DNA of 64,000 bases from Paludibacter sp. (GTDB lineage: Bacteria > Bacteroidota > Bacteroidia > Bacteroidales > Paludibacteraceae). Position 1 is the first letter of the stretch; each line of letters starts with the position of its first letter. The notes under the pieces are model-generated. The model was not told where the DNA came from. It was given only the letters and a program-made list of their open reading frames with translations, and did no database searches. The stretch spans positions 1-64,000 of the forward strand of contig DAIDKM010000004.1 in the NCBI GenBank assembly GCA_027450045.1, in the 5' to 3' direction. Shown here piece by piece: positions 11,464 to 44,083 of the stretch. The position numbers and the translations under genes were made by a program.

Positions 11464-11563
11464 AATTTTTTTATTTAAAGAAGGATGAAACTTCCATTTT
11501 TGAACTATCTGTAATATCCTTGCAAATGAAAGTTTCATCACAATTAATTAAAGATTCACACTG

Positions 11564-18159: not shown

Positions 18160-18216
18160 CAAAGATATTCGACTTTGAGACGTTTGTCAAGTACTTTATT
18201 AGCAAAAAATGATACT
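18160..18216 (-). promoter_or_regulatory. Activator-type promoter B (first SusC operon)
   Basis: On the minus strand: AGTAT (half-site 1, GTAT at 18212-18215), core TTTGCTAA, GTAC at 18191-18194 exactly 21 bases on, the -33 element TTGAC at 18186-18190, N20, and the -7 box TATCTTTG at 18160-18167. The spacing matches the Bacteroides sigma-AB consensus exactly. The paired half-sites fit an AraC-type dimer next to the polymerase. Confidence 0.8.
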
Positions 18217-25280: not shown

Positions 25281-25301
25281 CAGCCTAATTTATTGGATTG
25301 T

Positions 25302-26778: not shown

Positions 26779-28068
26779 TTATTTTTGGTTGGTTGATTTG
26801 GTTGTCGATAGTTTCTGATTATACTGCTTGATTAAATTCAGCGTGGAAACATCGGTGCTGAAAATAGAATTTAATCCCTGTTGTTCCATGGGTGGATCGC
26901 CTATAAGTTCATCGCCTTGTTTCCATTGATATTGATTGTTTGAAGCTTTCCCTTCGCCTCCAAACGCCCAAATATTGATACCTTGCACGGCGGGACATCC
27001 TTTCAACATCAAATTGAAAAGCGTCTTGAAATAGCGGTCGCGATACACCGTGGTTGCTTTCGGACTGAACTGCTGTTTGTCACGCGGAAAACCTATTTCT
27101 TCAATCACCAACGGTTTATGAATCTCGTTGGCAATCTTTGCATGTTCATATACGTATTGCTTCATGTTTGCCACTGTTGTTGTGTAAGTTGAATCAAAAT
27201 GCGCAAAGTCGATCCATCCCCAGTTTTTCGCCCAGATATGAATGGTTGCGTAGTCAATATCAGGACTTTCGTGAATGGCTTTCCAGAGATTGATGTCGTT
27301 TTCCGTCCCTTTTTCTCCTTCGGTTCCTGTTGTTAACAGGTGGTTGCTGTCGATCGATTTGATATATTTCGCTTCGGAGTAGATCCACTGTTTGTAGATT
27401 CCTTTATTGGCCTGCCCATCCGGTCGTGGTTCGTTGGCAAGCTCCCATGCCATGATGGTCGGATCGTCGCGATAAGGAATATGGGTATATTGATTGGTGC
27501 GACCGAGGATGAATTTGCAATACCGGTTGAACATTTCGGTACAGGTTTGATTGTTATAAAATTGACCAATAAACTTGCCGAACTTATCCCAGCCTGCCAC
27601 CTCGGGATACATCATCGGAACGTTCTTTGCCCATGCGAGATATTGGGCATAACCCCCGGTCCATTCCCAGTTATTATTCAGAAAGAGCACGGCAGTGATA
27701 TGTCGTTTGGCCAACTCGGCAAGAAAATAATCGAGGCCGGCAAGGTTATTGTCATCATAAACGCCCGGCTTCTTTTGCAACGGAAACGGCAGTTGTGCCA
27801 CATAAGTCGAAACACCGTCAACGCCAACCATCGAGCGCACGTTCGTTACTCCCTCTTTTTGCAGGAGATCAAGTTCCCGTTTCAAGCGGGCGCGATCGCC
27901 TCCATGGGGAGCTGCAATTAACGGACCATACCAATAATTGACGCCGATGAAGCGATAGGGTATTCCGTCGTGCATGAGTTTTCCGTTTTGAACGGTAACA
28001 AAATCATGCCCTTTTGCAAAAGCAATCAGCGGGAAAAGCAACAGGGAGAAAAACAACAATTTACGCAT
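26779..28068 (-). CDS. GH5 endo-beta-1,4-mannanase (subfamily 7-like)
   Basis: The ATG at 28068 starts a signal peptide (MRKLLFFSLLLFPLIAFA) and avoids overlap with the upstream gene. The 429-residue enzyme shows the GH5_7 mannanase pattern: FIGVNYWYGPLIA near 40, LGLDYFLAEL-type and NNNWEWTGGYAQYLAWA segments (residues 131-147), WELANEPRP with acid/base E213, and PLVIEEIGFPRD with nucleophile E324. Many GH5_7 enzymes are endo-mannanases; Bacteroidota members also include mannobiohydrolase-like forms. It is the last gene before a strong terminator and follows the acetyl-esterase by 23 bases, so de-acetylation and backbone cleavage are encoded together. Confidence 0.88.
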   Translation of the reverse strand: MRKLLFFSLLLFPLIAFAKGHDFVTVQNGKLMHDGIPYRFIGVNYWYGPLIAAPHGGDRARLKRELDLLQKEGVTNVRSMVGVDGVSTYVAQLPFPLQKKPGVYDDNNLAGLDYFLAELAKRHITAVLFLNNNWEWTGGYAQYLAWAKNVPMMYPEVAGWDKFGKFIGQFYNNQTCTEMFNRYCKFILGRTNQYTHIPYRDDPTIMAWELANEPRPDGQANKGIYKQWIYSEAKYIKSIDSNHLLTTGTEGEKGTENDINLWKAIHESPDIDYATIHIWAKNWGWIDFAHFDSTYTTTVANMKQYVYEHAKIANEIHKPLVIEEIGFPRDKQQFSPKATTVYRDRYFKTLFNLMLKGCPAVQGINIWAFGGEGKASNNQYQWKQGDELIGDPPMEQQGLNSIFSTDVSTLNLIKQYNQKLSTTKSTNQK

Positions 28069-28091
28069 ACATAGTTCTATAAAGGAAATGG

Positions 28092-29480
28092 TTACCAACG
28101 ATCAGTTCTGAATGGGACAAGCGGCAATCCGTTTGTGTCAAATAAATTAGGTATACCGGCGTTAGTAAAACAGTATCGAACCGCTACCGGAAGTTTTACT
28201 TGTTTGGCGCTTACTGCAATTGTGCCGTTCTTTTGTAGTTTTGCTTCTGCCGGATAGAACACCTTATCTTGTCCGGCAATTTGAAAGCTTTGAATGGTTT
28301 TTCCTTTGACCGTAAGCTTTCCAATGGAGGCAATGGTAAGGATGGCTTTGTTTTTCTCAATTTCCATGGAAGCAAAATGAGGTTGGTAAGGTTGCAATGA
28401 ATATCCATCATACCTTTCTTTCAATACTAAATTGGACAATCGTTCGGCAACCGCACGTTTGAGCTTTGGGTGAATGTTGGTCGTGTCGTTCACCAAATCT
28501 CCAATCGTGATCATGCCGGTTTTTGGTAAAGTCAAAGCAGTAGCTTGCTGTTCGCGAAGCAATGCGCCGCTGATTCCGGAGTAACCACTAAATGGAGCGA
28601 TTTGTACGTAGTAGAACGGGAATTCTTGCTGAAAAACTTTCCGCCAACTTGTAATCATTGCCTTAAATAAAGAGCCATAGTAAAGTGGACGTTCGGTATT
28701 ATTTTCTCCCTGATACCAGATTGTTCCTGCTATAGAATAATTGACAATGGGGGAAATCATGGAGTTGTAAATCGTTGAAGGAGCGACCGGCGCCCAACTA
28801 ACAGGAGAGATATCGTTGGCCATACGACGTAACGTGGTGTCGCGAAACACTTGATGAGGCGTCCATGCCTGCACACACGTACCGCCCCAATACGATCCGA
28901 TAAGTCCAACGGGGTTGTTGATATGGGCATTTAAATCTCGGCCAAAGAAATAACCGATAAGACTAAAGTTCTTCATGGAAGTCGAATCGCATACTTTCCA
29001 TTCGCCTTTGCAATCAGCGGACGGATAATCGCTGAATCCCAATGCTACCTGAAAGAAACGGATGGAATCGTTTTTGCATGTTTGCAACACATTGCCGGCA
29101 TCCAGATCTCCCCACGTATAATTAAATTGCATGTTCGATTGCCCCGAACAAAGCCATACTTCGCCCATTAAAAGATCGCTGATGGTGATGTGTTGGGTCC
29201 CATTCATAAAGGTGATGGAGTAAGGCCCTCCTGCTTTCGGTGTTTTTACCGTCGTTTCCCACGAACAATCTTTTTTTGGCATCACAGAGATTGTGTCAGT
29301 GGGATTCCAGTTGCATACAATTTTTACAGGGATGGTGCACGTTCCCCAGCCCCAAAGTTTTTCATTTGAATTGGCTTGCATCACGGCGTGATTACTCAAA
29401 ATGGCCGGCAAACGCAATTGAGTTTGAGCGGCTACTAACAAAGGCAAAAGAATAAATACAAGCAATACTACTTTTTTCAT
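28092..29480 (-). CDS. SASA-family acetyl-esterase (sialate O-acetylesterase-like)
   Basis: The ATG at 29480 is preferred to a TTG two codons upstream. The 462-residue protein has a signal peptide (1-18), a beta-sandwich, then the SGNH-like catalytic domain with WLCSGQSNMQ (nucleophile Ser115), the IGSYWGGTCVQAW and TIWYQGENN blocks, and DTTNIHPKLK with the catalytic His337. Proteins of this family were named for removal of acetyl groups from sialic acid, but in plant-polysaccharide loci they de-acetylate xylan, mannan or pectin. Here, between GH2 and a GH5_7 mannanase, acetylated (gluco)mannan is the likely substrate; that is inference from context. It should act in the periplasm or at the surface. 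Confidence 0.85.
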   Translation of the reverse strand: MKKVVLLVFILLPLLVAAQTQLRLPAILSNHAVMQANSNEKLWGWGTCTIPVKIVCNWNPTDTISVMPKKDCSWETTVKTPKAGGPYSITFMNGTQHITISDLLMGEVWLCSGQSNMQFNYTWGDLDAGNVLQTCKNDSIRFFQVALGFSDYPSADCKGEWKVCDSTSMKNFSLIGYFFGRDLNAHINNPVGLIGSYWGGTCVQAWTPHQVFRDTTLRRMANDISPVSWAPVAPSTIYNSMISPIVNYSIAGTIWYQGENNTERPLYYGSLFKAMITSWRKVFQQEFPFYYVQIAPFSGYSGISGALLREQQATALTLPKTGMITIGDLVNDTTNIHPKLKRAVAERLSNLVLKERYDGYSLQPYQPHFASMEIEKNKAILTIASIGKLTVKGKTIQSFQIAGQDKVFYPAEAKLQKNGTIAVSAKQVKLPVAVRYCFTNAGIPNLFDTNGLPLVPFRTDRW

Positions 29481-29588
29481 TGTCAAATCTATTTAATGGG
29501 TTGAAATATACTTTCTATATTTACAAAGCACTGAAACACAACAATATTAAAACAACAACTCCCTTTTCTTTCTCTGCTTAAATATACA

Positions 29589-32522
29589 CTATTTCGTTTG
29601 AATTGCAGACGGTACTTCCGGCAGTAACTTGCAAGGCTCAGTATGTATCGTGATCTTTGCTGCTGACAAGCCTTTGGCTGTTGCTGTGAGAATGATCTCT
29701 CCTGGAGTTCTGCCCGACTGAACGATAGCTTGCGCTAATCCGTTGAATATTTTTCGCTTCCACGTTGACGCTGGCGTACAAACCTGAATAATACCCGGAT
29801 CGGTGTTGAGATTGTCATACTGGAATCTTTTTATAAACGGAGTTGCAACAACAGCATAGCTATTTTTCCCTATACGAAGGATTGAATGATCAAGTTGATA
29901 TTGCTTTTCAGGATCGTCTCGTTTTATTTTATCGACAATCAAATGTCCGTTGATATATATGGCTTGCTCTTCCCCCAGACTCTTTGGCCAAAGTGATATC
30001 TGAGTTTTATCCGTCAAGCCGGATAACGTAAATTCGCCACGAATGACGCATGTATTAAGCGAATCCTTCTTTTCTATGTTGTATTCGCCTTGTCCGTTAG
30101 TTAATGAACGCCAATTGGAATCATCGAAATCAAAGGAAACTTCCGGGGAATTTGCTTTTGCTTGAACCAATTTTGCTTTCAGATTTCCAATGACGAGCTG
30201 ACTGTCGCTTTCAACAAAACGTTCTTTTTCGTGCGATGAAGGATCTCCGTTCCCGACGCCAATAATCTTCCCGGGACCGGTAAGCTGAAACCGAATTTCA
30301 TTTCCTGCATTTGGCACTAATCGACCTTTGGCATCATTCACTTGCACGGTAATAACCGAAACATCTTCACCATCCGCTTTGATCGTTGAGCGATCGGGGA
30401 TAAGTTGAATAGCAGCCGGAACTCCGGTTGTTTCTATGCTGTCGGCGATAATTTCTTTTCCGTTCTTAAACCCGCGAGCCAGCAACGTTCCGGGTTCATA
30501 ATTTACCGTCCATTCCAAATGGGAATTTTCCGGCATTATTTTTCGTCCCAAACTTTTATGATTCAAAAAAAGTTCTACTTCATTGCAGTTGCTATAGGCA
30601 ATCACGTCAATTGGTTTTCCTTCTTGCCCTTTCCGGTTCCAATCAGGAAAAATGTGTAAAACAGGCTCTTTCCTCCACCACGATTTTAGGTAATAGAAAA
30701 TATCTTTTGGGAAGCCGCAAAGATCGACAATGCCATATTGTGAAGTAACCTGGGGCCACCCATAAGGAGTAGGCTCACCACGATAATCGAATCCCGTCCA
30801 ATAGCATAGCCCGGCAAGAAACGGGCGGGCGGCATAAAATTTCCATCCCGACTCGGTTCCTACGTTTTCCGGCATTCGATTCGTGGGCGCCATGTGCGCT
30901 GTAGAATCATTGGTGACATAAATGCCGCGTGTGCCAATCGTATTACTTTCTTCTGTGCCAATGCCCGATTGCCAAGGAAATTTGGCGTGGTGCTCGTCAA
31001 TATTGCCTTGCACAATGTAATTATAGCCCATTACCTGCGTAACCATGCCAGTGCCGTTGTCCCAACCTCCGCTCACTGCAGCGGTGAAAGCGCGCGAAGA
31101 GTCTAACCGTTCTGCATAAGCCTGCATGGTTGCCGTGACTCGTGCGCCCTTAATATTCCCTTCGATTGCCCATTCTTCATTTCCCAGCGACCACAAAAAG
31201 ACACTCGGATGATTCCGATCCCGGACAATCATTTGTTTGAGCTGATCCAATTGTTCGGCATTTGTTCCCACTTCTCTGTTCTCATCTATGACAAGCATAC
31301 CTAACCAATCGCAAGCATCTAAAAATTCAGGAGACGGCGGATTATGCGAACATCGGATGGCGTTATCTCCCATTTCTTTCAATCGCTTGATGCGGAATAC
31401 CTGCATAGCATCAGGAACCGCAACGCCAACTCCTGCTGCATCTTGATGATTATTGGTGCCTTTGATGATGAAGTGTTTACCATTCAGGAAAAATCCCTTG
31501 TCCGGATCAAAATGAACGGTTCGTATGCCGAATGGCGTCTCGTAACGATCCATGATTGAATCGCCGGAAGTAACCGTAGTTATCAGTTTGTATAAATAAG
31601 GAGAATCCACATCCCAGAGTTTGGGTTTCTGGACAGGAATAACACAGTAGTATTCTTTCCTGCGGCCTGCCTTCAGATTCAGATTCTTCACTTGCTTGGA
31701 TGCAACGGTGTTACCATTTGCATCGATAATGGTTTGATGAATATCGAAACTCCTATCTTTTCGCCCATCATTTGCAATCGTTGCCCGTGCAGTGATATCA
31801 GCAGCATGATCTTTAAGAATGGAAGTAACAAAAGTGCCATATGTTGCCACATGAAGCGGCGCAGTGACATTCAACCATACATGGCGATAGATGCCGGCGC
31901 CTTCGTAATACCATCCTTCTTCCATCGTTGCGTCAACACGCACCACCACCACATTATCCCCGTTGTAGTTCAAATAATCGGTAATATCATATTGAAAAGG
32001 TAAATATCCGGAATGTTCCTGTCCAAGATAAAATCCATTCAAAAAAACTTTTGCATTGCGAAATACACCGTCAAATTGAATGGAAATTCGCTTCCCAAGA
32101 TCAGATTGAGGAATAAAAAAAGATTTTCGATACCAGCCGATACTCGTTTCCGGGAAATCTCTGCCAACTGTTTTGTATCCATGACTATACCCTGCTTTTT
32201 GGTCAAAAGGCATTTCAACTGCCCAGTCGTGCGGAAGATTTAGCAACCGCCATGCACGATCGTCAAATTTTGGGGAAGCGGGGCCATCGCCATATCCTGC
32301 TTTGGCAAAGTAAGAGAAATAACCAGTCCCAAAATTAAAATCCTTTTTGGCGTCTATGTCATTACCAAAAGCAAAACGCCACCCGAAATCCATAAGCAAG
32401 TGCTCCCTGATAGTCGGAAAGTTACTGATTTTTGCTTTGTTTTCTCCAAAAGAGAATGATGTTGCTAAAAACAACACACAAAAGAAACTTATGAATCCTT
32501 TGGGTAAGTTCATTTTATACAT
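29589..32522 (-). CDS. GH2 beta-glycosidase (beta-galactosidase-like)
   Basis: A 977-residue exported GH2 enzyme. After the signal peptide (about 1-26) come the jelly-roll sugar-binding domain (LPHDW near 97, GWYRKSFFIP, VFLNGFYLGQEHSGYLPF), an Ig-like domain, and the catalytic barrel from about 345 (NGKHFIIKGTNNHQD, then IRCSHNPPSPEFLDACDWLGM). WSLGNEEW gives the acid/base E449, and GIGTEES the probable nucleophile E524. DUF4982-type and further Ig-like domains follow (about 640-800), and an extra C-terminal jelly-roll is suggested near 790-880. GH2 covers beta-galactosidases, beta-mannosidases and beta-glucuronidases. The architecture with DUF4982 is that of Bacteroidota beta-galactosidases, so I favour galactosyl side-chain removal. 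It starts 12 bases after the preceding GH5. Confidence 0.85.
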   Translation of the reverse strand: MYKMNLPKGFISFFCVLFLATSFSFGENKAKISNFPTIREHLLMDFGWRFAFGNDIDAKKDFNFGTGYFSYFAKAGYGDGPASPKFDDRAWRLLNLPHDWAVEMPFDQKAGYSHGYKTVGRDFPETSIGWYRKSFFIPQSDLGKRISIQFDGVFRNAKVFLNGFYLGQEHSGYLPFQYDITDYLNYNGDNVVVVRVDATMEEGWYYEGAGIYRHVWLNVTAPLHVATYGTFVTSILKDHAADITARATIANDGRKDRSFDIHQTIIDANGNTVASKQVKNLNLKAGRRKEYYCVIPVQKPKLWDVDSPYLYKLITTVTSGDSIMDRYETPFGIRTVHFDPDKGFFLNGKHFIIKGTNNHQDAAGVGVAVPDAMQVFRIKRLKEMGDNAIRCSHNPPSPEFLDACDWLGMLVIDENREVGTNAEQLDQLKQMIVRDRNHPSVFLWSLGNEEWAIEGNIKGARVTATMQAYAERLDSSRAFTAAVSGGWDNGTGMVTQVMGYNYIVQGNIDEHHAKFPWQSGIGTEESNTIGTRGIYVTNDSTAHMAPTNRMPENVGTESGWKFYAARPFLAGLCYWTGFDYRGEPTPYGWPQVTSQYGIVDLCGFPKDIFYYLKSWWRKEPVLHIFPDWNRKGQEGKPIDVIAYSNCNEVELFLNHKSLGRKIMPENSHLEWTVNYEPGTLLARGFKNGKEIIADSIETTGVPAAIQLIPDRSTIKADGEDVSVITVQVNDAKGRLVPNAGNEIRFQLTGPGKIIGVGNGDPSSHEKERFVESDSQLVIGNLKAKLVQAKANSPEVSFDFDDSNWRSLTNGQGEYNIEKKDSLNTCVIRGEFTLSGLTDKTQISLWPKSLGEEQAIYINGHLIVDKIKRDDPEKQYQLDHSILRIGKNSYAVVATPFIKRFQYDNLNTDPGIIQVCTPASTWKRKIFNGLAQAIVQSGRTPGEIILTATAKGLSAAKITIHTEPCKLLPEVPSAIQTK

Positions 32523-32534
32523 AATTCGGCTGTT

Positions 32535-33611
32535 CTATTTGTCAACTTCCCCTTTTGCCGCTTTCTCGAAAAAGTTGCCGCAATCAGTCAATTTAAATGT
32601 TTTCCACGATTCAATCATGCTGGGGGTCCATTGCGGATCATACACCCACCAAATCCAGCTAATGTTTTTCCCTTCAAGATAATGGATAATTGCTTTCCCA
32701 TAATCTCCATTTTCCTTTATGCTACCGTCGCCCAGTGTAAAGCCGATTTCGGTAGCAATCACAGGATATTTATTGGCGGCAAATCCAAAATCTTCTTCCC
32801 ATTTTGGCGCATAAGGTGGCGTACGTTTGTGGGGATAAGGATGCGTGACATAGCCAATGCCTTCTGCATTAATCGGGGCATAATGCAGCGGCGTGAGATC
32901 ATATGCCCAGTCGAAGCCGGCAACTAACGGAATGCTGCGATTGTCATAAGAACGAATTAATTGAATCAACTCTTCATTGAGCGTTTTCCATTGCTCCCAC
33001 GATAGATTCCCAAGTTTTCCGTTATAATCGGTTGGCTCGTTGAAAAGTTCGAGAAATGCCACGGTATGGTTGCCACTAAAGTGTTGAGCCATGGTGCGCC
33101 AAAAATTAAATGTCTCGGCTTTTGAGGTCACATACATTGGATCCTGAAACAAATCTTCTTCTAAGTTGCCAATGGAATGCCAATCGATATCCACATATAA
33201 TCCTGTTTCTCCACACCATTCAACAGCTTGATCGAGTAACTTCAGATAATTCGCAGGCGTTCTTTCCCTCCATGCAATGGGATGTACGGGAATGCGAACC
33301 ACCATAGCTCCAAGCTGTTTAATTCTAACAAACAATTCTTTATTCCATTGTCCCTGATGCTCAATTTTGTCGGGATCAGCAATGGAAAGGCCTCGAAAAA
33401 GAACCGGTTCACCTTGTGGGTTTACGAAACGATTTCCTTTGACACTGATTCTCGGCAACAATTTTGCATCAGGACCGGGAACGCTATTATAGACTGTATT
33501 ATCTTCCCACCAGCGATGGAAAGTAGTTTGAGCTGTCTGCGAAACAACGGGCTTTGGAAAATTTACCATCAGCCCTATGAACATAAATAAGAGGATGATT
33601 GTTTTTTTCAT
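32535..33611 (-). CDS. GH5-family glycoside hydrolase
   Basis: A 358-residue secreted GH5 enzyme with a signal peptide at 1-25. Motifs: LFRGLSIADPDKI near 71, VVRIPVHPIAW at 104-114, YVDIDWHSIG, FLELFNEPTDY with acid/base E192, YVTHPYPHKR at 254-263, and VIATEIGF with nucleophile E288. It differs from the other two GH5 proteins in the window (no VRASMG and no NYWYGP block), so it belongs to another subfamily that I cannot name; endo-glucanase or endo-mannanase activity is expected. It is followed at 12 bases by GH2 and preceded at 183 bases by GH31. Confidence 0.8.
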   Translation of the reverse strand: MKKTIILLFMFIGLMVNFPKPVVSQTAQTTFHRWWEDNTVYNSVPGPDAKLLPRISVKGNRFVNPQGEPVLFRGLSIADPDKIEHQGQWNKELFVRIKQLGAMVVRIPVHPIAWRERTPANYLKLLDQAVEWCGETGLYVDIDWHSIGNLEEDLFQDPMYVTSKAETFNFWRTMAQHFSGNHTVAFLELFNEPTDYNGKLGNLSWEQWKTLNEELIQLIRSYDNRSIPLVAGFDWAYDLTPLHYAPINAEGIGYVTHPYPHKRTPPYAPKWEEDFGFAANKYPVIATEIGFTLGDGSIKENGDYGKAIIHYLEGKNISWIWWVYDPQWTPSMIESWKTFKLTDCGNFFEKAAKGEVDK

Positions 33612-33794: not shown

Positions 33795-36113
33795 TTACAA
33801 TTTGGTTTCTACAATTATATCATTATCAACATTTTGTTTTTTTATGTTGATTAAAAGTTCTTTTGTTGAAGCATTCCAACTCCAATTTGTAAAAGTGTGA
33901 CCATTGAGATATACCATTTTAGGCTGAGTTGTATTGATTATTTTTATTTTATAAGCACGCTGCATCACATTCCCGGCAAAGCTCCCTTTCGGTTTTTGAA
34001 TCACAATAGTTTGTGCAATATGATCCGTATATTCATAGCTTAATTTTATCCATCTAAATTGGTTTTGCTTGAATAAAAAACTACTGCCATCATCTTCATA
34101 AAGGTTGAATGCCGTTTTTGTGCTTTTAGTGGGAGTATAAGCAACGATAATCAATGTATCTAACGGTGCACCGGAATAGTTTTGATAAGGCGACATCGGA
34201 ATAATTGAACCTGCTTTAACATATAACGGGAATTGAAATATAGATTTTGCTACAAATATAGTTTGATTCCCTTGATAAAAATTTTTTGTGAAGAAATCGT
34301 ACCAATCTCCTTGTGGTAACCACAGTGTCCGACTGGTTTCTGCGTCTGTTCCTTTATTCGAAGCATGTAAGATAGGGGCAACTAAGAAATTATCACCAAA
34401 CAAATATTCATCATACCGGTACGATTCATTTGATTGAGGATATGCTAAATACAGTCCTCTGCATAATGGCATGCCTGTATCATGTGCATTTCTTGTCATG
34501 GTGTAAATGTATGGCAATAGTTTGTACCGTAATTGAATGGAAACTCTTGCTGAACGAAGCACGGGATCGCCCCATTCCCAAGGCAAACGGGAGCCTTGGT
34601 CAAAATTGCCGGATTTAACAGGAGGAGTCCAATATTCAGCTTTCTTGGCATGTACCCTGAAGATTGGCGATACCGCTCCCAATTGCAACCATCTGGCAAA
34701 CATCTCACCCGAAGGGGGATAACCTGACGGTCCTTGCGGCATATATCCTCCAATATCATGCGACCAATAGACTCCACAGTTTCCACCTTTAATATCTGCC
34801 ACTAAGCTGTAAGCCATGGTTTCCCAACTGATGTATGTATCGCCCGAAAAACCAACAGGATAACGTTGATTGCACAGAACATTGCTATGCAACCTATTCA
34901 GCACAAAAGATCTTTTCTGTGTTTCTTTACTTAGGTCATCTTGGTACCAATCAGACGAATAAATGGAATTTTCTCCATCTACCCATAAGAAATCAAAGCC
35001 ATCTTTAATTAATGGAGAGATATACAGATCGTAAAATGCCGAGAATTGCCTTTTGTTCTTGGTGTCATAATGAATATCCTTGATATTAGGCTCCCAAGAC
35101 ATTCCGGGAATCAATGCTTTATTATAATTGACTCCTGCTTCTTTGCAAAACTCCTGTATATTTGGATCTTTAGAATAAATTGCGCCGGAATGATGATTAA
35201 ATCCTGTTTCGATATGTTCATTGTCTGCCCATAAATTAAATGCTTTTATATCAGGAAAATTATTAGTATCAATCTGATAACCATACCATTCATTGGTATG
35301 CCAACACATATCTAAAACAACAGCATCAATAGGAATTCTTTCCTGACGAAATTTATAGACAATGTGCTTATAGTCGTTTGCCGTATAATCAGCCCAACGG
35401 GAATAAATGAAACCAAGCGACCATTTTGGCAGCATAGGTATTTTCCCTGCTAAACGATAAAAATCATTGAACGCTTGCTTGAAGTCATCTCCATATCCCA
35501 ATACGTATAAGTCCTGATATTTATCTCCTTCTTTATACATATATAGTGTGTCTTTTGTGTGCCTAAGCACCGTAAATCCTCGCCGACTAAGTATCCCATC
35601 GGGAATCAGGTGAAGGTGACTTTTGGACCCCACATCGTTTTGCTCAGCATATTTAACGTCGCCTTTGCAATTGTCCAAGGATGGAATCACTCCTCCTAAA
35701 TTCAAAGTATCTTTATCTGCCAGTGTCTGAAGGGCAAAGTTTGAATGGTGTCTCAAAAACACTTCGATGCCACCTTGCATCAGCTTTTTAGAGGAATTGT
35801 ACAATATAGTCAAAGAATCCGTTTGAATGGAATATCGATGGCTTTGCTGTTTAATGCTAAAAGGGACTTTATTAAACTTGACATTTACCACACCCAAGTC
35901 TGTAACAGGAGGGGTTTGATGAATCCCTTGCTGGACTCTAAACATGGTTGGAGTCAAAATCTGAATACAAACATCTTTGAAAGACAAAGAATTATCCTGT
36001 ATTTTATACCCAATAGAAAAACAATCAGAAGTAGATAGCGCTGTAAATATTATCAGTAATATTTTATTCGCAATTCTGTGTTGGGAAAAGGAAATGTTTC
36101 TACGTCTTTCCAT
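33795..36113 (-). CDS. GH31 alpha-glycosidase
   Basis: A 772-residue GH31 protein, AT-richer than its neighbours. An N-terminal hydrophobic stretch at 17-33 after a basic start suggests a signal peptide. The barrel begins at LPKWSLGFIYSRW (228-240). IDTNNFPDIKAF and GFNHHSGAI mark the insert typical of the Bacteroidota branch that usually reads FWWIDWQQG at the nucleophile; here it is FLWVDGENS with D379. YPVGFSGDTYISW carries the acid/base D425, and WSHDIGGYM follows. The C-terminal beta domains are complete. The sugar removed could be alpha-xylose, alpha-galactose or alpha-glucose. The gene starts 274 bases after the SusE-position gene, beyond a hairpin, yet has no clear promoter of its own. 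Confidence 0.82.
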   Translation of the reverse strand: MERRRNISFSQHRIANKILLIIFTALSTSDCFSIGYKIQDNSLSFKDVCIQILTPTMFRVQQGIHQTPPVTDLGVVNVKFNKVPFSIKQQSHRYSIQTDSLTILYNSSKKLMQGGIEVFLRHHSNFALQTLADKDTLNLGGVIPSLDNCKGDVKYAEQNDVGSKSHLHLIPDGILSRRGFTVLRHTKDTLYMYKEGDKYQDLYVLGYGDDFKQAFNDFYRLAGKIPMLPKWSLGFIYSRWADYTANDYKHIVYKFRQERIPIDAVVLDMCWHTNEWYGYQIDTNNFPDIKAFNLWADNEHIETGFNHHSGAIYSKDPNIQEFCKEAGVNYNKALIPGMSWEPNIKDIHYDTKNKRQFSAFYDLYISPLIKDGFDFLWVDGENSIYSSDWYQDDLSKETQKRSFVLNRLHSNVLCNQRYPVGFSGDTYISWETMAYSLVADIKGGNCGVYWSHDIGGYMPQGPSGYPPSGEMFARWLQLGAVSPIFRVHAKKAEYWTPPVKSGNFDQGSRLPWEWGDPVLRSARVSIQLRYKLLPYIYTMTRNAHDTGMPLCRGLYLAYPQSNESYRYDEYLFGDNFLVAPILHASNKGTDAETSRTLWLPQGDWYDFFTKNFYQGNQTIFVAKSIFQFPLYVKAGSIIPMSPYQNYSGAPLDTLIIVAYTPTKSTKTAFNLYEDDGSSFLFKQNQFRWIKLSYEYTDHIAQTIVIQKPKGSFAGNVMQRAYKIKIINTTQPKMVYLNGHTFTNWSWNASTKELLINIKKQNVDNDIIVETKL

Positions 36114-36386: not shown

Positions 36387-37310
36387 TTAGAATGTGTATC
36401 CCTGACGTTTAAATACCCAAAACCAAGCACCACCCCAGCTACCTGCTCCCGGTTCAGGAGCTCCTAGGATCATGACATTGTTATCAAGATATAGAATATC
36501 GTAGGTATAAATAGGAGTCGCACTAAAGTTAGGTTGATACCCAAGGCTGATGGTAGCCCCTGTCAACGTTAGAGTTCCAATTGACCAATTGTTACCACCG
36601 GTTGCAGAAGGAGCATTCACCGTTGCTAAGGTTTGTGTCATGTCAAACTTAAAAGAGCCGTGATATGTTCCTGCAGGTAATCCTTTAGGAGTTGTCCCCG
36701 ACAAAATCTGAGTGTTCCCTGTCACTAAAGTAAAGTTTGCTCCACCATTCAAATCAAATGTCATTTGATCGTTGGCCACCCCCCAACCTTGCAAAGCCGA
36801 TAATCCATTCTGCCACCACGCGGGAGCATTACTTGCTAAATAACCACCATTCCCATAACACATCCCTGCATTTACACCAGGAGCCCAATTAGCGGGAATA
36901 TCGGTAGCCCAAACCCACGTTTTCGTGCCAGATCCTGCCAAATAAGTCCACGTTGGAGAAAGTGCATGATCAATAGTAGAAATAGTAATAGTTACAGAAT
37001 CCTTAACGATACCGCCAGCAGTTGTTCCATAAAAATAGATAGTATTTTTACCAAGGAACGGAAGCAATATTGTATCATTTTGTTTATTGGATGGTCCAAT
37101 TCCTGAAACCCACATGCCTGCTACATTTGGGGTATTGTTGATCATTACAATCTGATTACCTCCTGTAGTTGTGGCATGGACATCTAATTTGAATTGGGAG
37201 GCTGCGACAAATGCTCCGAGTGACCCATCATTGCTTTGAATAGGATTACATGATGCAAGCATAAGCAGCATAAAAGCTACCACGCCATACCATATTTTAT
37301 TGTATTTCAT
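36387..37310 (-). CDS. SusE-position surface lipoprotein with PKD-like domain
   Basis: A 307-residue lipoprotein with lipobox LASC (Cys21). Residues about 30-115 look like a PKD/Ig-like domain (TIYFYGTTAGGIVKDSVTITIS). The C-terminal 190 residues start with TKTWVWATD and are rich in Trp and Gly (MCYGNGGYL, APAWWQNG, GAGSWGGAWFWVFKRQGY), the texture of a carbohydrate-binding beta domain. It follows SusD by 72 bases and takes the place of SusE/SusF or an SGBP. It should sit on the outer membrane and bind the polysaccharide. No sequence link to the TIG proteins of the first PUL is evident. Confidence 0.75.
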   Translation of the reverse strand: MKYNKIWYGVVAFMLLMLASCNPIQSNDGSLGAFVAASQFKLDVHATTTGGNQIVMINNTPNVAGMWVSGIGPSNKQNDTILLPFLGKNTIYFYGTTAGGIVKDSVTITISTIDHALSPTWTYLAGSGTKTWVWATDIPANWAPGVNAGMCYGNGGYLASNAPAWWQNGLSALQGWGVANDQMTFDLNGGANFTLVTGNTQILSGTTPKGLPAGTYHGSFKFDMTQTLATVNAPSATGGNNWSIGTLTLTGATISLGYQPNFSATPIYTYDILYLDNNVMILGAPEPGAGSWGGAWFWVFKRQGYTF

Positions 37311-37382: not shown

Positions 37383-39164
37383 TTAATTTCCTTGATAAGT
37401 TTTATCCCCATCTGTTGTATTCCAGCCATCATTTTGTTGGAGCACTCCGTTAGAAAGAGAAATTTGTGTTTCAGGAATAGGTAAGAATCCTTTGGTTTCG
37501 TTAAAACGGGTGATATTGGGTTTGTAGGTTGTTTTAGTTCCTGCATTCCAAATGGTAACACCGTTTTCAGCATTAAGATCAGCAGCCATCGTCCCCCAAC
37601 GAAGTTCGTCCCAATAGCGTACTCCTTCAAAGGCTAATTCTGCTTTCCGTTCTTGTTGTATAGTTGCTAACGAAGTACTGGTTAGAGCAGGTAGACCTGA
37701 ATGTGCATGTACGGCATTTAAATATGCCAGCGCATTTGCACTCCCAAGTTCAGCCCCCATCAACAGAACATCTGAAAAACGGATAAGAATTAAGTTTTGA
37801 GTATTGTCTGTAGAAGTATTTATGGTCAATGTGGGATAAATTTCATGGCTGTAGTTCCAGATATTTCCTGAAGCACCCGCGCTTGCAGGAGCCTTCACAT
37901 TGACAGGAACATATTTCTTTTGCCAATAGCCGGTTTCTTCCCATAAATCCCCTCCCCATGAATAAGATGGTGTGATTCCTTCATTCGGATCGGTAACATC
38001 GCAAACAGAACCCACTTTGCGTAAATCACCAGGAACGAACCAATTTGTTGAGTTGAAAACAGTCGGACTTACTGTACACCAACCCCAACCGTAGCCGAAA
38101 GGTAAGGTGCCTTGAAGTCTCCATCCCTGAAAGAGGTCAATACTGTTGCAATAAGAGGTGCTTTGATTATTGTTCCAACCTCCAAATGTTGAATAGACAA
38201 TTTGGAAAACAGCCTCATGGTTATTTCCTCCATTCGATCCATCATCTCCTACCCATGTCAAGTTGTTGTTTATAGCATAAGGATAGGTATTGTTAGGACT
38301 TTTATACGAATATGGCCATAAATCGCCGAAAACAGGTACTGTGGCATATCCACTGTTTGCTATACAATCATCCACCCAACCTACAACATCTGCATTAGTA
38401 ATTTTACCACCACCAGCTAACGGCATAGTGGCAGAAGCAGAAGAGTAGGTTCTACCATAAGCTTGACCATTATAGAATAAAAAGACGCGTGCCATTAAAG
38501 CTTCTGCAGACCATTTTGTAGCATGACCCGGATCAAGCGAATTATAGGCTGCGTTAGGCATACTGTCAATGGCGAACTTCAAATCAGACGCAATCTGAGC
38601 ATAAACGCTATCAACAGAGGCTCTTTTAGATGTAGGATAAGCTGGATTGAGAATAAGTGGAACTCCCATCATTTTACCACCAACCGGACCTCCAAACATT
38701 CTCATCAGATCAAAATAATTCATGGCTCTCATAAAATGAGCTTCACCGGCAATTTGATTTTTTTGACTTTCGCTTGACCATCCTGAAACTTGGCCGATGT
38801 ATTGAATCAAATTGTTCGCTCTGAAAATTCCTTGATAGTAATTAGCCCAAGTACTTCCATATTGATCATTTTTTGATTCTTGCCATTGATCCATGGCTCC
38901 CTGATCATCATGCTGCCCACCTCCACTGAAGCACTCATCCGACATTTGCTCTGAAAGCAAAAATATAGAACCTCCGTTATTAGGATCTATAGCCGAAAGA
39001 TATGACGAATAAATGGCTGTCAATGCTTGTGATGCATCAGAAGGAGTTTGATAAAAGTTGGCAGTCGTTTTGGCTGTCAAATCTTGCGTATCCAGAAAAC
39101 TCTGTGAACATCCTAACAAAGTAAATGACAGGATAACAGATAAATATATTGCTATTTTTTTCAT
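37383..39164 (-). CDS. SusD/RagB-family nutrient-binding outer-membrane lipoprotein
   Basis: A 593-residue SusD homologue with lipobox LLGC (Cys19) followed by SQSFLDTQD. Conserved SusD elements: GEAHFMRAMNYFDLMRMFGG near 140, ATKWSAEALMARVFLFYNG, LILIRFSDVLLMGAELG, QQERKAELAFEGVRYWDELRWG near 530, and FLPIPETQI close to the end. It should cap the SusC barrel encoded 19 bases upstream. Compared with the first PUL's SusD it is longer and little similar outside the family motifs, which suggests a different oligosaccharide preference. Confidence 0.95.
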   Translation of the reverse strand: MKKIAIYLSVILSFTLLGCSQSFLDTQDLTAKTTANFYQTPSDASQALTAIYSSYLSAIDPNNGGSIFLLSEQMSDECFSGGGQHDDQGAMDQWQESKNDQYGSTWANYYQGIFRANNLIQYIGQVSGWSSESQKNQIAGEAHFMRAMNYFDLMRMFGGPVGGKMMGVPLILNPAYPTSKRASVDSVYAQIASDLKFAIDSMPNAAYNSLDPGHATKWSAEALMARVFLFYNGQAYGRTYSSASATMPLAGGGKITNADVVGWVDDCIANSGYATVPVFGDLWPYSYKSPNNTYPYAINNNLTWVGDDGSNGGNNHEAVFQIVYSTFGGWNNNQSTSYCNSIDLFQGWRLQGTLPFGYGWGWCTVSPTVFNSTNWFVPGDLRKVGSVCDVTDPNEGITPSYSWGGDLWEETGYWQKKYVPVNVKAPASAGASGNIWNYSHEIYPTLTINTSTDNTQNLILIRFSDVLLMGAELGSANALAYLNAVHAHSGLPALTSTSLATIQQERKAELAFEGVRYWDELRWGTMAADLNAENGVTIWNAGTKTTYKPNITRFNETKGFLPIPETQISLSNGVLQQNDGWNTTDGDKTYQGN

Positions 39165-39183: not shown

Positions 39184-42100
39184 TTAGAATTTAAGATCTA
39201 CCCCAATCATCACAGTTCTTGGTGAAGGATAATATCCTATATCAATTCCTTGTGAAAAAGCATCAGGAGCCCAACCTACTTCAGGATCCATCCCCCTATA
39301 TTTGGTAAAAGTATAAGCATTTTGTATCGTTGCATATAATCTGGCTTGTTGAAGTGGCATGGCTTTCCAAATATGCTTAAAATCATAACCTAATGTGATG
39401 TTAGAGATACGGAAGTAGTCACCTGATTGCAACCACATATCTGAAAGATAATTGTTATTATTATTTCCATTCAGCGAAATGCGTGGCATCGTGTTGGATG
39501 TGCCAACTCCATGCCAACGATTTAATATGCCGGTGGTATAATTAGCCTGAGGATCATTTAATGAATTCCAATCGGTAGCTTGAATAATCTTGTTACCTGA
39601 AACCCCTGATCCTAATAAAGAGAAATCAAATCCTTCATATTCAAGACTAATGGTTGTCCCGTATGTATAAGGTGCATGCGGATTCCCAATATTAGTGCGA
39701 TCACTAGCATCAATCTTTCCATCTCCATTTACATCAACAAAACGAATGTCCCCAGGTACTGCATTAGGCATAATCATACCGCCGCTTTTATTTTTATAGG
39801 CAAGAACATCGGCTTCTGTTTGAAATATACCGGCTGTCTTGTATCCATAAAAAGCGCCTGCCGGCATACCTGCTTGGGCAATATACCATTGACTATTATT
39901 GCCATAGAAATTTTGATCATTATCTCCATAGTTAGGAACACCACCTTGAATTTTGATTACTTCATTATGGTTAAAAGCCATATTCCCGTTTATACTATAA
40001 TGTAATTTCCCAATATGATCTTTCCAACCAACATTCACTTCATATCCTCTGTTGAGAATATTTCCGCCATTAACAAACGGAGCAGTGGTTCCTGCTACAG
40101 CAGGCACAGGAACTCGTACTAACCATCCATCTGTTACTTTGTTATACCAATCAAAATTCAAGGTCAATCTGCTATTTAACATATTTGCATCAAATCCAAT
40201 ATCAGATTGTGTTGAATTCTCCCACGTTACATTGGGATTAGGCAAAATATTTGGATAAGCTCCTGCGCTTTGAGCCGTCTTGTCCCCAAATGTATAATAA
40301 TTTCCTGCCCCGACTCCACCAGTTGCTACAGTTGCCAAATACTGAAAATTAGGTATGGATTGATTCCCGTTTTTACCCCAGCTCGCACGCAATTTCAAAA
40401 AGTCCAACCATGATTGGGTGTTCTTCATAAACGATTCGTTGGTGATGATCCAGCCGGCAGAGAAAGCAGGGAATGTTCCCCAACGATGTCCTGCTGCAAA
40501 ATTGGATGAACCATCATCCCGTACAATGGCAGAAAACAGATAGGTTCCTTTGAAATCATAGCTTAAACGACCAAAGTAAGAAAGAATTCCTCCTCCACCC
40601 CAGGAAGAGCCGCCAACTACGGTACCACCTGTTGATGAAATAGTTGGAGTATTGGTTAAATAGGCATATTCAAAACTATTGAAAATATTGTTCTGATTCG
40701 ATGCGTTCATGGATTCACCAAGCCCATCTCTTTCAGCTGATTCTCCTAACAAGACAGAAAAGTTATGATCTTGATTAATCTTAAAACTATAGGTAGCTGT
40801 GTTGTCCCAAATCCAATTCAATCCTGCATACATGCTTTGAGATGTATTATTGACAGAGGCTCCAACTGCTGTGGTTGGTGTTGATACAGATCCCAAGTTA
40901 TACGTTGGTTGAAAAGCACGATAGCTTCCTGCTGAAACATTGGCACTAAAACGCGATGTAATGTCAAGATTCTTAATAGGAGAAACGGTGGTGTAAAAAC
41001 TTGCCATCAGGTTATGATTCTTCGAACTATTTAACCCGCGTGTATAAATCATTTGTGCAATAGGATTATTTTGTAATTGATCCCAAGGAATTTTATAACT
41101 ATACAATCCCTGTGCACCATAAATAGGTAAAAATGGATTAGCTGACTCCATGTTATAAACATCATTCCAATATCCGTTACCGACTGCAATCCCGCTTTTT
41201 TCATTATAGGAATAATTAATATTTTCACCTATTTTCCAGATAGTTCGATTCGCATTCGTGATTATATTGTGATCACTGTTAATTCGAAAATTATAACGAT
41301 CATAATGAGAAGCAACGGGCTTTCCCAGTATCCCATCTTGCGACATAAAGCCAAGGCCTAACGAATAAGTAGACCTTGCACTCCCCCCCGTGATATTTAA
41401 GGTATGACTTTGTATCGGAGCATTGGCGTTAGTTATAGCTTGCATCCAATTGGTCCCTTTATCGGTTCCGGCCAAAATAGCCGCTGCATTTGGGACAAGT
41501 GGAACTTTTGCTCCATAATCATTCCCATTCAAACTGGTTGCCAAAGTATTGATATTGTACGGTAGCTGTCCCCCATTAACCATCCCTTCGTTGATAACAG
41601 CCAAATATTGTTGGGCATTCAATGTATTGGAAGTTTTATACACATTTTGCCATCCATAATATCCATCGTAAGTAACAGTAGGCTTTTCATCAATTCTTCC
41701 TTGTTTTGTCGTAATCAATACAACTCCATTAGCAGCACGAGAACCGTAAATGGCAGCCGTTGCATCTTTCAATACATCCACACTTTTAATATCGGATGGA
41801 GATAAGTTATCAATGCTTCCAACAACAACACCATCAACAACGTACAAAGGAGTAGAATTGTATATGGTTCCCATTCCACGAATATTGATCTTATAACTAT
41901 CTCCCGGTTGTCCGTCTGTTTTGGTAAGCTGAACACCTGGTGTACTCCCTTGCAAAGCTCCCAGTGTTGAAACAGTATTCAATTTCTGGATGTCATTACC
42001 GCTCACTTGAACGGTAGCACCTGTCATTACTTTCTTTTGCATCGTTCCATACCCGATGGCAACGACTTCGTTCAAGCCGATAGCTTCATCTTCCATGGTG

Positions 42101-42486
42101 ACGTTTACCGATGTGCGATTTCGCACACTGACATCTTGACTTTTCATCCCAACGAAGGAGAATTGCAACATGGCATCAGCCGGTACGCGGCGTATCGTGA
42201 AAGCTCCATTTCCATCGGTGATGGTACCCATTGTCGTTCCTTTCACAACAACTGTTACACCAGGAAGAGCGCCCCCTGATTTGTCAACTACTTTTCCGGT
42301 CACTGTTTTTTCATTCTGATTTTGGTCTGTTTGAGCAGCCGACGTTCCAGATTTAGTGGCATAAGCGCCAATAGCCGTTCCAAATGTTACTAAAAACAGT
42401 AGCATCAGGATTCGTTTCATTTGTTTTGGTAGAGGGATCGTGATGCCTCTACCACCATTCATGGTTCTTTTCATAAATTTGTTCAT
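39184..42486 (-). CDS. SusC/RagA-family TonB-dependent oligosaccharide transporter
   Basis: An 1100-residue SusC homologue. The annotated ATG at 42486 gives a long basic leader before the hydrophobic signal core; the ATG at 42420 (MKRILMLLFLVTFG) is an equally good start. After the signal comes a carboxypeptidase-regulatory-like domain (KTVTGKVVDKSGGALPGV, about 60-145), the LNEVVAIGYG segment, the plug (INIRGMGTIYNSTPLYVVDG, then AAIYGSRAANGVVLITTKQG) and the barrel ending in MIGVDLKF with a terminal Phe. It imports oligosaccharides across the outer membrane in concert with the adjacent SusD. Its leader of about 565 bases carries promoter C, next to the AraC-type regulator gene. Confidence 0.96.
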   Translation of the reverse strand: MNKFMKRTMNGGRGITIPLPKQMKRILMLLFLVTFGTAIGAYATKSGTSAAQTDQNQNEKTVTGKVVDKSGGALPGVTVVVKGTTMGTITDGNGAFTIRRVPADAMLQFSFVGMKSQDVSVRNRTSVNVTMEDEAIGLNEVVAIGYGTMQKKVMTGATVQVSGNDIQKLNTVSTLGALQGSTPGVQLTKTDGQPGDSYKINIRGMGTIYNSTPLYVVDGVVVGSIDNLSPSDIKSVDVLKDATAAIYGSRAANGVVLITTKQGRIDEKPTVTYDGYYGWQNVYKTSNTLNAQQYLAVINEGMVNGGQLPYNINTLATSLNGNDYGAKVPLVPNAAAILAGTDKGTNWMQAITNANAPIQSHTLNITGGSARSTYSLGLGFMSQDGILGKPVASHYDRYNFRINSDHNIITNANRTIWKIGENINYSYNEKSGIAVGNGYWNDVYNMESANPFLPIYGAQGLYSYKIPWDQLQNNPIAQMIYTRGLNSSKNHNLMASFYTTVSPIKNLDITSRFSANVSAGSYRAFQPTYNLGSVSTPTTAVGASVNNTSQSMYAGLNWIWDNTATYSFKINQDHNFSVLLGESAERDGLGESMNASNQNNIFNSFEYAYLTNTPTISSTGGTVVGGSSWGGGGILSYFGRLSYDFKGTYLFSAIVRDDGSSNFAAGHRWGTFPAFSAGWIITNESFMKNTQSWLDFLKLRASWGKNGNQSIPNFQYLATVATGGVGAGNYYTFGDKTAQSAGAYPNILPNPNVTWENSTQSDIGFDANMLNSRLTLNFDWYNKVTDGWLVRVPVPAVAGTTAPFVNGGNILNRGYEVNVGWKDHIGKLHYSINGNMAFNHNEVIKIQGGVPNYGDNDQNFYGNNSQWYIAQAGMPAGAFYGYKTAGIFQTEADVLAYKNKSGGMIMPNAVPGDIRFVDVNGDGKIDASDRTNIGNPHAPYTYGTTISLEYEGFDFSLLGSGVSGNKIIQATDWNSLNDPQANYTTGILNRWHGVGTSNTMPRISLNGNNNNNYLSDMWLQSGDYFRISNITLGYDFKHIWKAMPLQQARLYATIQNAYTFTKYRGMDPEVGWAPDAFSQGIDIGYYPSPRTVMIGVDLKF

Positions 42487-43169
42487 GTTTTAAATGAATA
42501 CTTCACCTTTTTCTGTCAGGTGATGGTTGAATAATTATGGATGCAATTTGTTGTTTGTAAACGCTTTATTTGTCAAACTCATACATTTCCTTTCGTTATC
42601 AAGATTTGTAATAGTTCGATTAGGAGAGCCTTTTTAGTCGTTTGCATAATTACTGTCGGAAGTTCCGGCTTTTACTATACTTCAGGATGCAATGCTGTGC
42701 AATTCAATGCATGACTGATGTAGGGATCGTAACCCAAAACGCTTTTCGAAGTATCGCATCGCAGAAATGATTGATTAAATTCGACAAAGCTGACTTGAGT
42801 TTTTACAGATGTGTTAATTGAATTTGTGTAGGTGAGATAGCAGAAGTTTGTGTTACGTCATGGTGTGAAGTAATTTAAAGTTTGACACAGCTAGTTTCTC
42901 CTTTTTTATTCGGCTTACTTGTGAATATATAGTTAACGTTATATCTACATTGAAAGCCGAAACCTAAAAACACATTCACAACAATAACTGCTGTGAAGTC
43001 AGTTTCCATTTTCAAGTTTGCACGGATGATGACATACAATACAAAGTTGAACCTCGCAAAGGTATATTACTTTGACGCCTTTTTCAAGTACAATTTTAGC
43101 AAAGAATGGTACTTTTTTGCGATTTGTTAATCGCGACCTTTTTTAAAGGGAGGAGTGATGCGTGAAGGA
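42487..43169 (-). other. Gene-free region with structured SusC leader and promoter C
   Basis: The 683 bases hold promoter C and a leader of about 565 bases. Visible structures in the leader are a hairpin with eight-base arms TTCGGCTT/AAGCCGAA (42909-42916 and 42954-42961), the palindrome CGGAAGTTCCG (42657-42667), and a small TCACCT/AGGTGA hairpin about 20-40 bases before the start codon. Between promoter C and the AraC stop a GCGATT/AATCGC hairpin lies at 43119-43134. No gene is supportable. Confidence 0.6.
43057..43113 (-). promoter_or_regulatory. Activator-type promoter C (second SusC operon)
   Basis: On the minus strand: GTAC (43109-43112), core TTTGCTAAAA, GTAC (43088-43091) exactly 21 bases further, TTG at 43085-43087 as -33 element, N20, and TACCTTTG at 43057-43064 as -7 box. 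Geometry is identical to promoters A and B, and the flanking TTTGCGARGTT after the -7 box is shared with promoter B. Confidence 0.82.
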
Positions 43170-44054
43170 TTAAACTAATACTTTCTTTCTGTGATAGTTA
43201 TCTCTGAATTCTTTAGGAGAACACCCTTTGCGCTTGCGGAAGATACGGTTAAAATTAGAAATGTTGTTGAATCCGCTACTGAAACAAATCTCACCAATTG
43301 ATTGTGAAGAATCAACTAATAGGCGAATGGCGTTCCCTATGCGAATATCTAACAAGTAGTCAGTGACACTTTTCCCAGTGCGTTGTTTGAAAAAACGACT
43401 AAAGGAGGCTTCGGTCATGTTCACGCTTTTAGCTAGTTGGGAGAGCCGAATCTCTTCGGTGTAGTGTTGAACTAAATAATCGTGTACTTTTTGAACGCGG
43501 CGGCTTTCGATGGTGGATAGTGAGCGGGCAAATGAACTGCTCGAAAGCGTGCGGGCATCATTACTCAATGACAACTCATAAAGCAATGACAAAAAACTTA
43601 TTACGGCATAAAACCCTTGTTTTTCGTGCGAGAGTGATGTGAGAAGCGAACGAACGGAAAGAATAGTATTCAGAGGAAAAACCAGTCCTTTTTGAGCAAG
43701 ATCAAGCATTTTCTTAATGCTTTTGAACTGGTTTTTATCAAGCATTCCGGGTGATAACAAATTGGACGAAAATTGAATGGTGATTTCGTGTATTTCATTC
43801 GAGGTACACTGATAGTTTTCCCATGTGTGTTCCAGCTCTTTACCCGAAATCAACACTAAGTCGTAGCCACCGATGATTTCAATCGAATCGCCTACAATGC
43901 GGCGGGTTCCTTCTGCATGTTCAACGTAATTGAGTTCGCAATCTGCATGTTTGTGAAGCGGGAAAGTGAAGGTTGCTTTGGTGCGATCGACTATATAGAA
44001 GCAATCCTTTTCAGAAAGCGGCGTAATCTCTTGAAGAATGGTTGGAGCAAACAT
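43170..44054 (-). CDS. AraC-family transcriptional regulator with cupin sensor domain
   Basis: A 294-residue regulator. The N-terminal half carries a cupin-like ligand domain (FPLHKHADCELNYVEHAEGTRR near 31-52, and the ELEHTWENYQC stretch near 73). The C-terminal 100 residues hold the two helix-turn-helix units: RVQKVHDYLVQHYTEEIRLSQLAKSVNMTEASFSRFFKQRTG and IGEICFSSGFNNISNFNRIFRKRKGCSPKEFRD are the DNA-binding segments in broken form. AraC proteins with this layout usually activate sugar genes, binding paired half-sites 21 bases apart. Exactly such sites occur 60 bases downstream of this gene and at two further PUL promoters, so it is the best candidate for their activator. A -7 box lies at 44084-44091. 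Confidence 0.88.
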   Translation of the reverse strand: MFAPTILQEITPLSEKDCFYIVDRTKATFTFPLHKHADCELNYVEHAEGTRRIVGDSIEIIGGYDLVLISGKELEHTWENYQCTSNEIHEITIQFSSNLLSPGMLDKNQFKSIKKMLDLAQKGLVFPLNTILSVRSLLTSLSHEKQGFYAVISFLSLLYELSLSNDARTLSSSSFARSLSTIESRRVQKVHDYLVQHYTEEIRLSQLAKSVNMTEASFSRFFKQRTGKSVTDYLLDIRIGNAIRLLVDSSQSIGEICFSSGFNNISNFNRIFRKRKGCSPKEFRDNYHRKKVLV

Positions 44055-44083
44055 GATACTTTTTTATCATTTTAAGGTGCTTG

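Follow-up and report, generated by a model that had tools for sequence, protein, structure and literature searches.

A shared operator and an AraC-family regulator predict a single beta-mannan regulon in a Paludibacter genome

The activating site of Escherichia coli AraC, araI1-araI2, consists of two directly repeated half-sites at a spacing of 21 bases, of which the inner lies against the -35 element, and the protein that binds it joins an N-terminal barrel to a C-terminal domain with two helix-turn-helix (HTH) motifs. Here we describe a comparable arrangement in a stretch of 64,000 nucleotides from Paludibacter sp. (Bacteroidota, Bacteroidales; GenBank assembly GCA_027450045.1, contig DAIDKM010000004.1, positions 1 to 64,000 of the forward strand), referred to below as the window. 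Three promoters of polysaccharide utilization loci (PULs), A, B and C, carry one operator that is unique to them in the genome, is conserved, and is associated across genomes with relatives of an AraC-family regulator encoded next to site C. The likeness to araI1-araI2 lies in the 21-base direct repeat, at B and C also in the position of the inner half-site at the promoter element, and in the predicted architecture of the regulator, whereas the half-site sequence is another and the promoter is of the Bacteroidota -33/-7 kind. We consider it likely that the AraC-family protein binds this operator, and it would then switch on the three units together, as one predicted beta-mannan regulon; a first-pass annotation of the window had likewise joined two SusC operons and a glycosidase operon in one regulon, which comparative genomics supports.

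Direct repeats at a mean distance of 21 bp precede the PUL operons controlled by hybrid two-component systems (HTCSs) in Bacteroides thetaiotaomicron, which also have an AraC-type DNA-binding domain, according to the part of that reconstruction considered here (PMC3878776), whereas the present regulator is a 294-residue one-component protein with neither kinase nor receiver. The beta-mannan PUL of Bacteroides ovatus shares GH26 enzymes with the locus described here; in the portions of the two reports used, its oligosaccharides are sensed in the periplasm by the HTCS BACOVA_02097 (PMC3243724, PMC5094572), in contrast to the predicted cytoplasmic AraC-type sensor of the window. Comparison by description also brings in a Muricauda beta-mannan PUL, which contains an expressed AraC-type factor (FG28_RS02325), but which has an HTCS as well and for which the sections considered describe no operator or regulon (PMC9860051). 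A one-component AraC-family sugar regulator in Bacteroides is RhaR of B. thetaiotaomicron, the only member of its family among the other regulators tabulated in the reconstruction; its predicted target is one rhamnose operon (PMC3878776, in the part considered). Among the open-licence papers searched, by title and opening of the abstract, none was recognised as describing an operator or regulon for a beta-mannan regulator of the standalone AraC type in Bacteroidota, and the parts of PMC10766802, PMC12125979, PMC11253607 and PMC12704710 that were covered contain nothing on this regulator.

All three sites lie on the minus strand, exactly where the first-pass annotation had placed its GTAC/GTAT half-sites (Table 1). 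Read 5' to 3', site A is AGTACCATTTTTTGCTAAAATCGTATTAC-N20-TACATTTG, site B is AGTATCATTTTTTGCTAATAAAGTACTTG-N20-TATCTTTG and site C is AGTACCATTCTTTGCTAAAATTGTACTTG-N20-TACCTTTG. GTAY occurs in each of them only at positions 2 and 23, and is thus spaced by 21 bases; TTTGCTAA is common to all three, and the TAnnTTTG box was found at every site at the expected 20-base spacing. When these sequences are read against the promoter consensus of TAnnTTTG at -7 and TTTG near -33 (PMC7366714, in part), the inner half-site abuts the -33 box as TTG at B and C; the same had been claimed for A, but there half-site 2 continues as TAC, giving TTAC. The comparison with AraC made at first pass holds for the 21-base direct repeat, although the same geometry has been published for Bacteroides HTCSs as well (PMC3878776, in part). 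Likewise, the distance of 57 bases between site C and the regulator gene is correct, but the site lies downstream of the end of that gene, between it and susC, and not in front of the regulator.

The operator is specific to these promoters. With up to three mismatches allowed, the 21-base pattern AGTAYCATTYTTTGCTAAAAT has three matches in the 2,962,911-base genome, which are sites A, B and C (0, 0 and 2 mismatches, with 0 at site A), and its reversed control has none; random occurrence, named at first pass as grounds for refutation, was thus not what the genome held. The looser pattern GTAY-N17-GTACTTG matches B, C and one further place, and its reversed control also gives one match, so that it is the whole half-site, and not the spaced GTAY pair alone, that is specific. 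Sites A and C are also conserved beyond their surroundings. When gaps are scored as differences, identity to the counterpart in congener locus L081 is 91% at site A, against 44% over the remaining intergenic stretch, and site C is 96% identical to that of L007, against 69%; site A is kept in two congeners (L081, L082). These comparisons bear on the idea that the sites resemble one another because promoter segments were copied when PULs were duplicated or moved, which would imply no shared regulator. B and C do align over 70 bases at 77%, longer than the operator alone. However, A shares with them just 20-25 aligned bases, which are the operator, the site is kept in L081 and L007 where the flanks have diverged, and in other genomes the same site stands before different gene families, and we regard copying as highly improbable.

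Relatives of the regulator were examined at 44 loci of named genomes, the closest being L007 from a Paludibacter sp. assembly (regulator 91% and SusC 93% identical). One locus (L044) matched residues 2-154 only and was dropped, leaving 43 for a leave-one-out test. For each locus in turn the motif was derived from the window sites together with those of the remaining loci, near-identical ones excepted, and up to 500 bases after the held-out regulator gene were scored with it. In 38 of the 43 loci the best score lay above the 99th percentile of the controls, which comprised 962 windows. In 37 the motif was followed by TAnnTTTG, 21 bases past the 28-base motif in 34 and 22 bases past it in 3, whereas only 3 of the 962 control windows had the motif with this box at 20-22 bases. 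The box lies outside the scored motif and therefore provides independent support. An earlier motif run without leave-one-out gave the same picture. In a set of 40 sites, selected by their spacing to TAnnTTTG, half-site 1 reads AGTATCA...TTnGATAA and half-site 2 reads GTATTTG on the -33 region; the GTAY columns that dominate are the same as in the window sites, and columns 28-29 are TG in most. The motif thus trails regulator relatives, and at distant sites (below) it precedes mannan-type genes, contrary to the scatter before unrelated genes that had been named as a second ground for refutation.

Some further features of these loci may be recorded. The sample origins named for them are rumen, gut and soil. 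The TAnnTTTG box lies one base further out (22, not 21) in L008, L009, L010 and L086, where the regulator is 72% identical. Overlapping operator matches 21 bases apart, that is three half-sites in series, occur at L105:1274-1322 and L108:2416-2464, and would be consistent with one protomer per 21-base unit. Half-site 1 can be read as an inverted repeat (TATCA...TGATA) in some relatives, and this was rejected as a general reading, since it is not preserved in the sites of the window itself. A loose scan with the 21-mer (up to three mismatches) matched 91 of 150 genomes of the family, often together with its reversed controls, and was too noisy to use. Eight stretches around matches with one to three mismatches in congeners G093, G121 and G033 were scored with the earlier motif matrix; a site scoring above 10 was present in three (L081, L082, L086) and absent from five (L083, L084, L085, L087, L088).

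The genes behind the regulator point in the same direction. When genes are labelled by the window protein that they match best in blastp (E <= 1e-8), the first labelled one within 700 bases past the regulator is of Man5A/GH5_7 type in 26 of the 44 loci, SusC in 7 and GH26 in 1, with no labelled gene in 10, and a GH26, GH5_7-type or GH5 homologue is present in 32. Homologues of both SusC and SusD of unit B occur in 13 loci and of its first surface glycan-binding protein, SGBP_B1, in 15; the full order regulator, GH5_7-type, SusC_B, SusD_B, SGBP_B1 is found in 10 (L014, L016, L017, L018, L024, L028, L029, L035, L047, L048). Relatives of operon B thus stand directly behind the regulator elsewhere, with the operator between them, which ties unit B, 26 kb from the regulator here, to that protein.

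We then used a profile (R1) built from sequence alone on 35 promoters, containing no window site but including L007, the orthologue of C. In the window's genome, where 150 of 2349 first-look candidates were scored and the E-values are rough, B ranked first (E = 2.8e-6) and C second (E = 1.1e-5). Partial matches at intermediate values (E = 0.02-0.05) lie at C110:82-125, C1:30986-31036 and C99:2542-2587, and were not taken as regulon members, there being by eye no recognisable mannan gene; the other GH130 matches, on C26 and C115, had no site at E <= 10 among the scored candidates. Across 393 genomes of the order, 19 matched at E <= 1e-3, comprising 14 of the 50 with a relative of the regulator (E <= 1e-40) and 5 of the 343 without. 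After exclusion of eight genomes, the window's own and the seven sources of training sequences, the comparison stood at 7 of 42 against 5 of 343 (Fisher p = 6e-5); the stricter cut-off of E <= 1e-4 gave 5 of 42 against 0 of 343 (p = 1e-5). Some held-out genomes could be identical to sources of training loci, but the held-out sites, except that of G253, are not adjacent to a regulator gene.

The seven held-out genomes with a relative contain nine sites, of which seven precede a GH5, GH5_7-type, GH3 or SusC gene. In G170, G257 and G501 the site is followed by a GH5 homologous to the one in unit A (2311-3357), with SusC next in all three, and the site does not share a contig with the regulator relative. 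The two are 1.7 Mb apart in G371, where the site precedes a GH5_7-type gene and the -7 box is TAAATTTA. G281 and G312 have the site before SusC, and G312 has another before GH3. One training site came from G313, in which three further sites stand before a GH130 gene, an MFS_2 sugar transporter (on another contig) and a GLUG-repeat protein. Simple ORF calling places three of the five sites in genomes lacking a relative inside ORFs; the other two precede a SusC (29%) and an fn3 protein.

Several observations weigh against the assignment of all three units to this regulator. No site above control level lies within 500 bases behind the regulator gene in 5 of the 43 loci (L011, L019, L021, L026, L032), although in L019, from the cultured Marseilla massiliensis An824, a full-length site follows at 760 bases, and L015 scores above control level but has no TAnnTTTG. 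No site at E <= 1e-3 was seen in 36 of the 50 genomes with a relative, under strict scan filters and with relatives down to 31% identity. Two of the nine held-out sites precede other genes, a DUF2961 protein in G170 and an acyltransferase region in G253. Site A has no TTTG at -33, and R1 gives it only a partial match over the first 27 positions (E = 0.4), below three partial matches elsewhere. This last pair of points could mean that the regulator controls B and C, with site A having decayed or being under weak regulation. Yet A has no mismatch to the lineage-specific operator, keeps both the 21- and the 20-base spacing and is conserved in two congeners, and a weak -33 element would be expected of an activator-dependent promoter; we therefore think a decayed A unlikely.

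The remaining objections concern the identity of the binding protein, which could be an HTCS encoded elsewhere, the adjacent AraC-family gene then having other targets. The motifs bound by HTCSs of B. thetaiotaomicron are direct repeats spaced on average by 21 bp (PMC3878776, in part), the B. ovatus beta-mannan PUL is sensed through BACOVA_02097, and there are three matches to the HTCS-associated Y_Y_Y domain elsewhere in the genome studied here. An HTCS was first suspected in the 1289-residue ORF at 21249-25118. This ORF encodes an Eco57I-type methylase instead, and no large ORF with an AraC domain is present in the DNA examined at the 44 loci, so the HTCS was dropped as owner of the sites; we now rate such an owner as distinctly unlikely, somewhat more so than a decayed site A.

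The regulator itself does not have the composition of an HTCS (periplasmic sensor, kinase, receiver and AraC domain). Only HTH domains were found in its 294 residues by Pfam, and neither a kinase nor a receiver domain was. The AlphaFold2 model (mean pLDDT 84.8) has seven strands and then helices in residues 19-176, making up a beta-rich N-terminal domain, followed by two HTH motifs, and its Foldseek matches include ToxT, CsvR, Rns, the solved RhaR regulatory domain (5u93) and the DNA-binding domains of AraC- and MarA-type proteins. The model and domain content agree with a one-component regulator of the AraC family, with a two-HTH C-terminal domain and a predicted N-terminal ligand-binding domain.

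Operator-like repeats also lie over the regulator's own start codon or -7 box. The candidate element over the start codon (Table 1) scores weakly, but the sequence TGnTAAAA(A/T)AGTATCATG covers the start codon in all six cases examined (the window, L007, L008, L009, L010, L086). In 6 of 39 other loci the repeat nGTAYY-N16-GTATnTTTG lies over the regulator's -7 box; operator-like repeats upstream of the gene were seen in L029, L031, L034, L040, L042 and L047. The upstream motif score is above 5 in 11 of 43 loci, the 99th percentile of the controls being 4.8. The regulator probably also represses its own gene through such a site over the -7 box or start codon, and this would be the least certain step of the scheme.

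Table 1. Promoter sites, regulator and genes of the three units in the window.
Feature	Unit	Position	Strand	Evidence or remarks
Site/promoter A	A	7945..8001	-	half-site 1 7984-8001; half-site 2 GTAT 7976-7979; TAnnTTTG 7945-7952; fronts 583-aa gene, GH31, GH5, GH26, GH130
Site/promoter B	B	18160..18216	-	half-site 1 18199-18216; GTACTTG 18188-18194; TAnnTTTG 18160-18167; fronts susC, susD, SGBPs, GH26-CBM35
Site/promoter C	C	43057..43113	-	half-site 1 43096-43113; GTACTTG 43085-43091; TAnnTTTG 43057-43064; fronts susC, susD, SusE-like, GH31, GH5, GH2, esterase, GH5_7
Standalone AraC-family regulator, 294 aa		43170..44054	-	HTH_18 PF12833 E 4.4e-24; PF00165
Candidate autoregulatory element over regulator start codon (TGATAAAAAAGTATCATG)		44052..44069	-	weak profile score 4.8 bits, E 2.8 (44056-44072)
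GH130, 4-O-beta-D-mannosyl-D-glucose phosphorylase type; truncated at the window edge, final visible gene	A	1..1111	-	PF04041 E 1.5e-22; PDB 3was E 1.6e-199
GH26 mannanase, Man26C-like	A	1160..2263	-	PF02156; closest PDB 4zxo, then mannanase CjMan26C 2vx4
GH5	A	2311..3357	-	PF00150 E 7e-51
GH31	A	3364..5760	-	PF01055 E 8.8e-79
583-aa protein, first gene of unit	A	5827..7578	-	kept behind site A in L081, L082
GH26-CBM35	B	8132..9916	-	PF02156, PF16990
TIG-domain surface glycan-binding-like protein	B	10156..11541	-	PF01833
Surface glycan-binding protein (SGBP), SGBP-B type	B	11564..12703	-	PF18329 E 1.7e-28
SusD	B	12732..14420	-	PF07980
SusC	B	14431..17607	-	TIGR04056; Plug
Man5A/GH5_7-type mannosidase or mannanase	C	26779..28098	-	PDB 1uuq E 4.6e-100 and GH5 mannanases
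SASA-type acetylesterase	C	28092..29486	-	PF03629
GH2	C	29589..32522	-	PF02836, PF02837
GH5	C	32535..33611	-	PF00150 E 1.9e-31
GH31	C	33795..36113	-	PF01055
Protein behind susD, SusE-like by position	C	36387..37310	-	no Pfam match; homologue behind susD in L007, L008, L010, L012, L086
SusD	C	37383..39164	-	PF14322, PF07980
SusC	C	39184..42486	-	TonB plug, CarbopepD_reg_2

The genes of the three units suggest what the regulon is for. By homology they include the components of a beta-mannan PUL, namely SusC/SusD pairs in B and C, two GH26 enzymes, a Man5A-type protein and a GH130 mannosylglucose phosphorylase, the last of which extends unit A to the left edge of the window, beyond the gene list of the first-pass annotation. 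The Man5A-type protein has no Pfam match at 0.001, and GH5_7 is the subfamily to which we take it to belong. The first protein of unit A has neither a Pfam match nor a PDB sequence match at E 0.001, and the model matched by one of the unit B surface glycan-binding proteins, PF18329, is that of a xyloglucan-binding domain. Taken together, the three units are predicted to encode much of a beta-mannan pathway, and the gene set fits galacto- or glucomannan as the predicted substrate.

Between units B and C, positions 18884-26642 contain small ORFs, a DEAD-box helicase and the Eco57I-type methylase already mentioned, which has a TaqI-like specificity domain. In congener G093 the intergenic stretch that precedes site A (L081:1288-1900) seems on visual inspection to carry the C-terminal end of a gene like that at 18884-19591 of the window, which is near site B here. 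The stretches from the -7 box to the start codon are long, at 366 bases for A (7579-7944), 552 for B (17608-18159) and 570 for C (42487-43056); at the loci of other genomes the downstream gene mostly starts 14-84 bases past the box. Folding of the leader RNA gave z-scores of -0.5 for B and -2.9 for C, and a tRNA is the window's one match to Rfam.

These results suggest a mechanism in which the regulator binds the operator, presumably as a dimer, each protomer reading one half-site (AGTAYCAnnnTTTGMTAA) with its two HTH motifs. Since the promoter-proximal half-site lies on the -33 region, the bound regulator would recruit the housekeeping RNA polymerase to target promoters in which this element is poor, as at A, or partial, as at B and C. 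Given its predicted beta-rich N-terminal domain and the lack of a kinase or receiver domain, the protein would respond to a signal in the cytoplasm. This is most likely a product of beta-mannan breakdown, for instance mannobiose or mannosylglucose, that the GH26 and GH130 enzymes would make and consume.

As the 21-base geometry is already published for HTCSs (PMC3878776, in part), this would be a new regulon of a known kind. We also put forward a wider proposal, for and against which we see the case as evenly balanced: that in Bacteroidales a widespread master switch of beta-mannan use is a soluble AraC-type protein with its sensing in the cytoplasm, filling the role that the membrane-bound HTCS has in B. 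ovatus. One portable operator would activate from the -33 side and silence the regulator's own gene over the -7 box or start codon, and could in this way join unlinked PULs, a phosphorylase and transporters in one regulon. In PULs of uncultured Bacteroidales a regulator gene is common and its targets are often obscure; here one AraC-type family gains an operator with its promoter geometry, together with a list of targets and a predicted substrate. The mannan regulon thereby becomes predictable from sequence, and cytoplasmic and periplasmic sensing of one polysaccharide may be compared directly in related bacteria.
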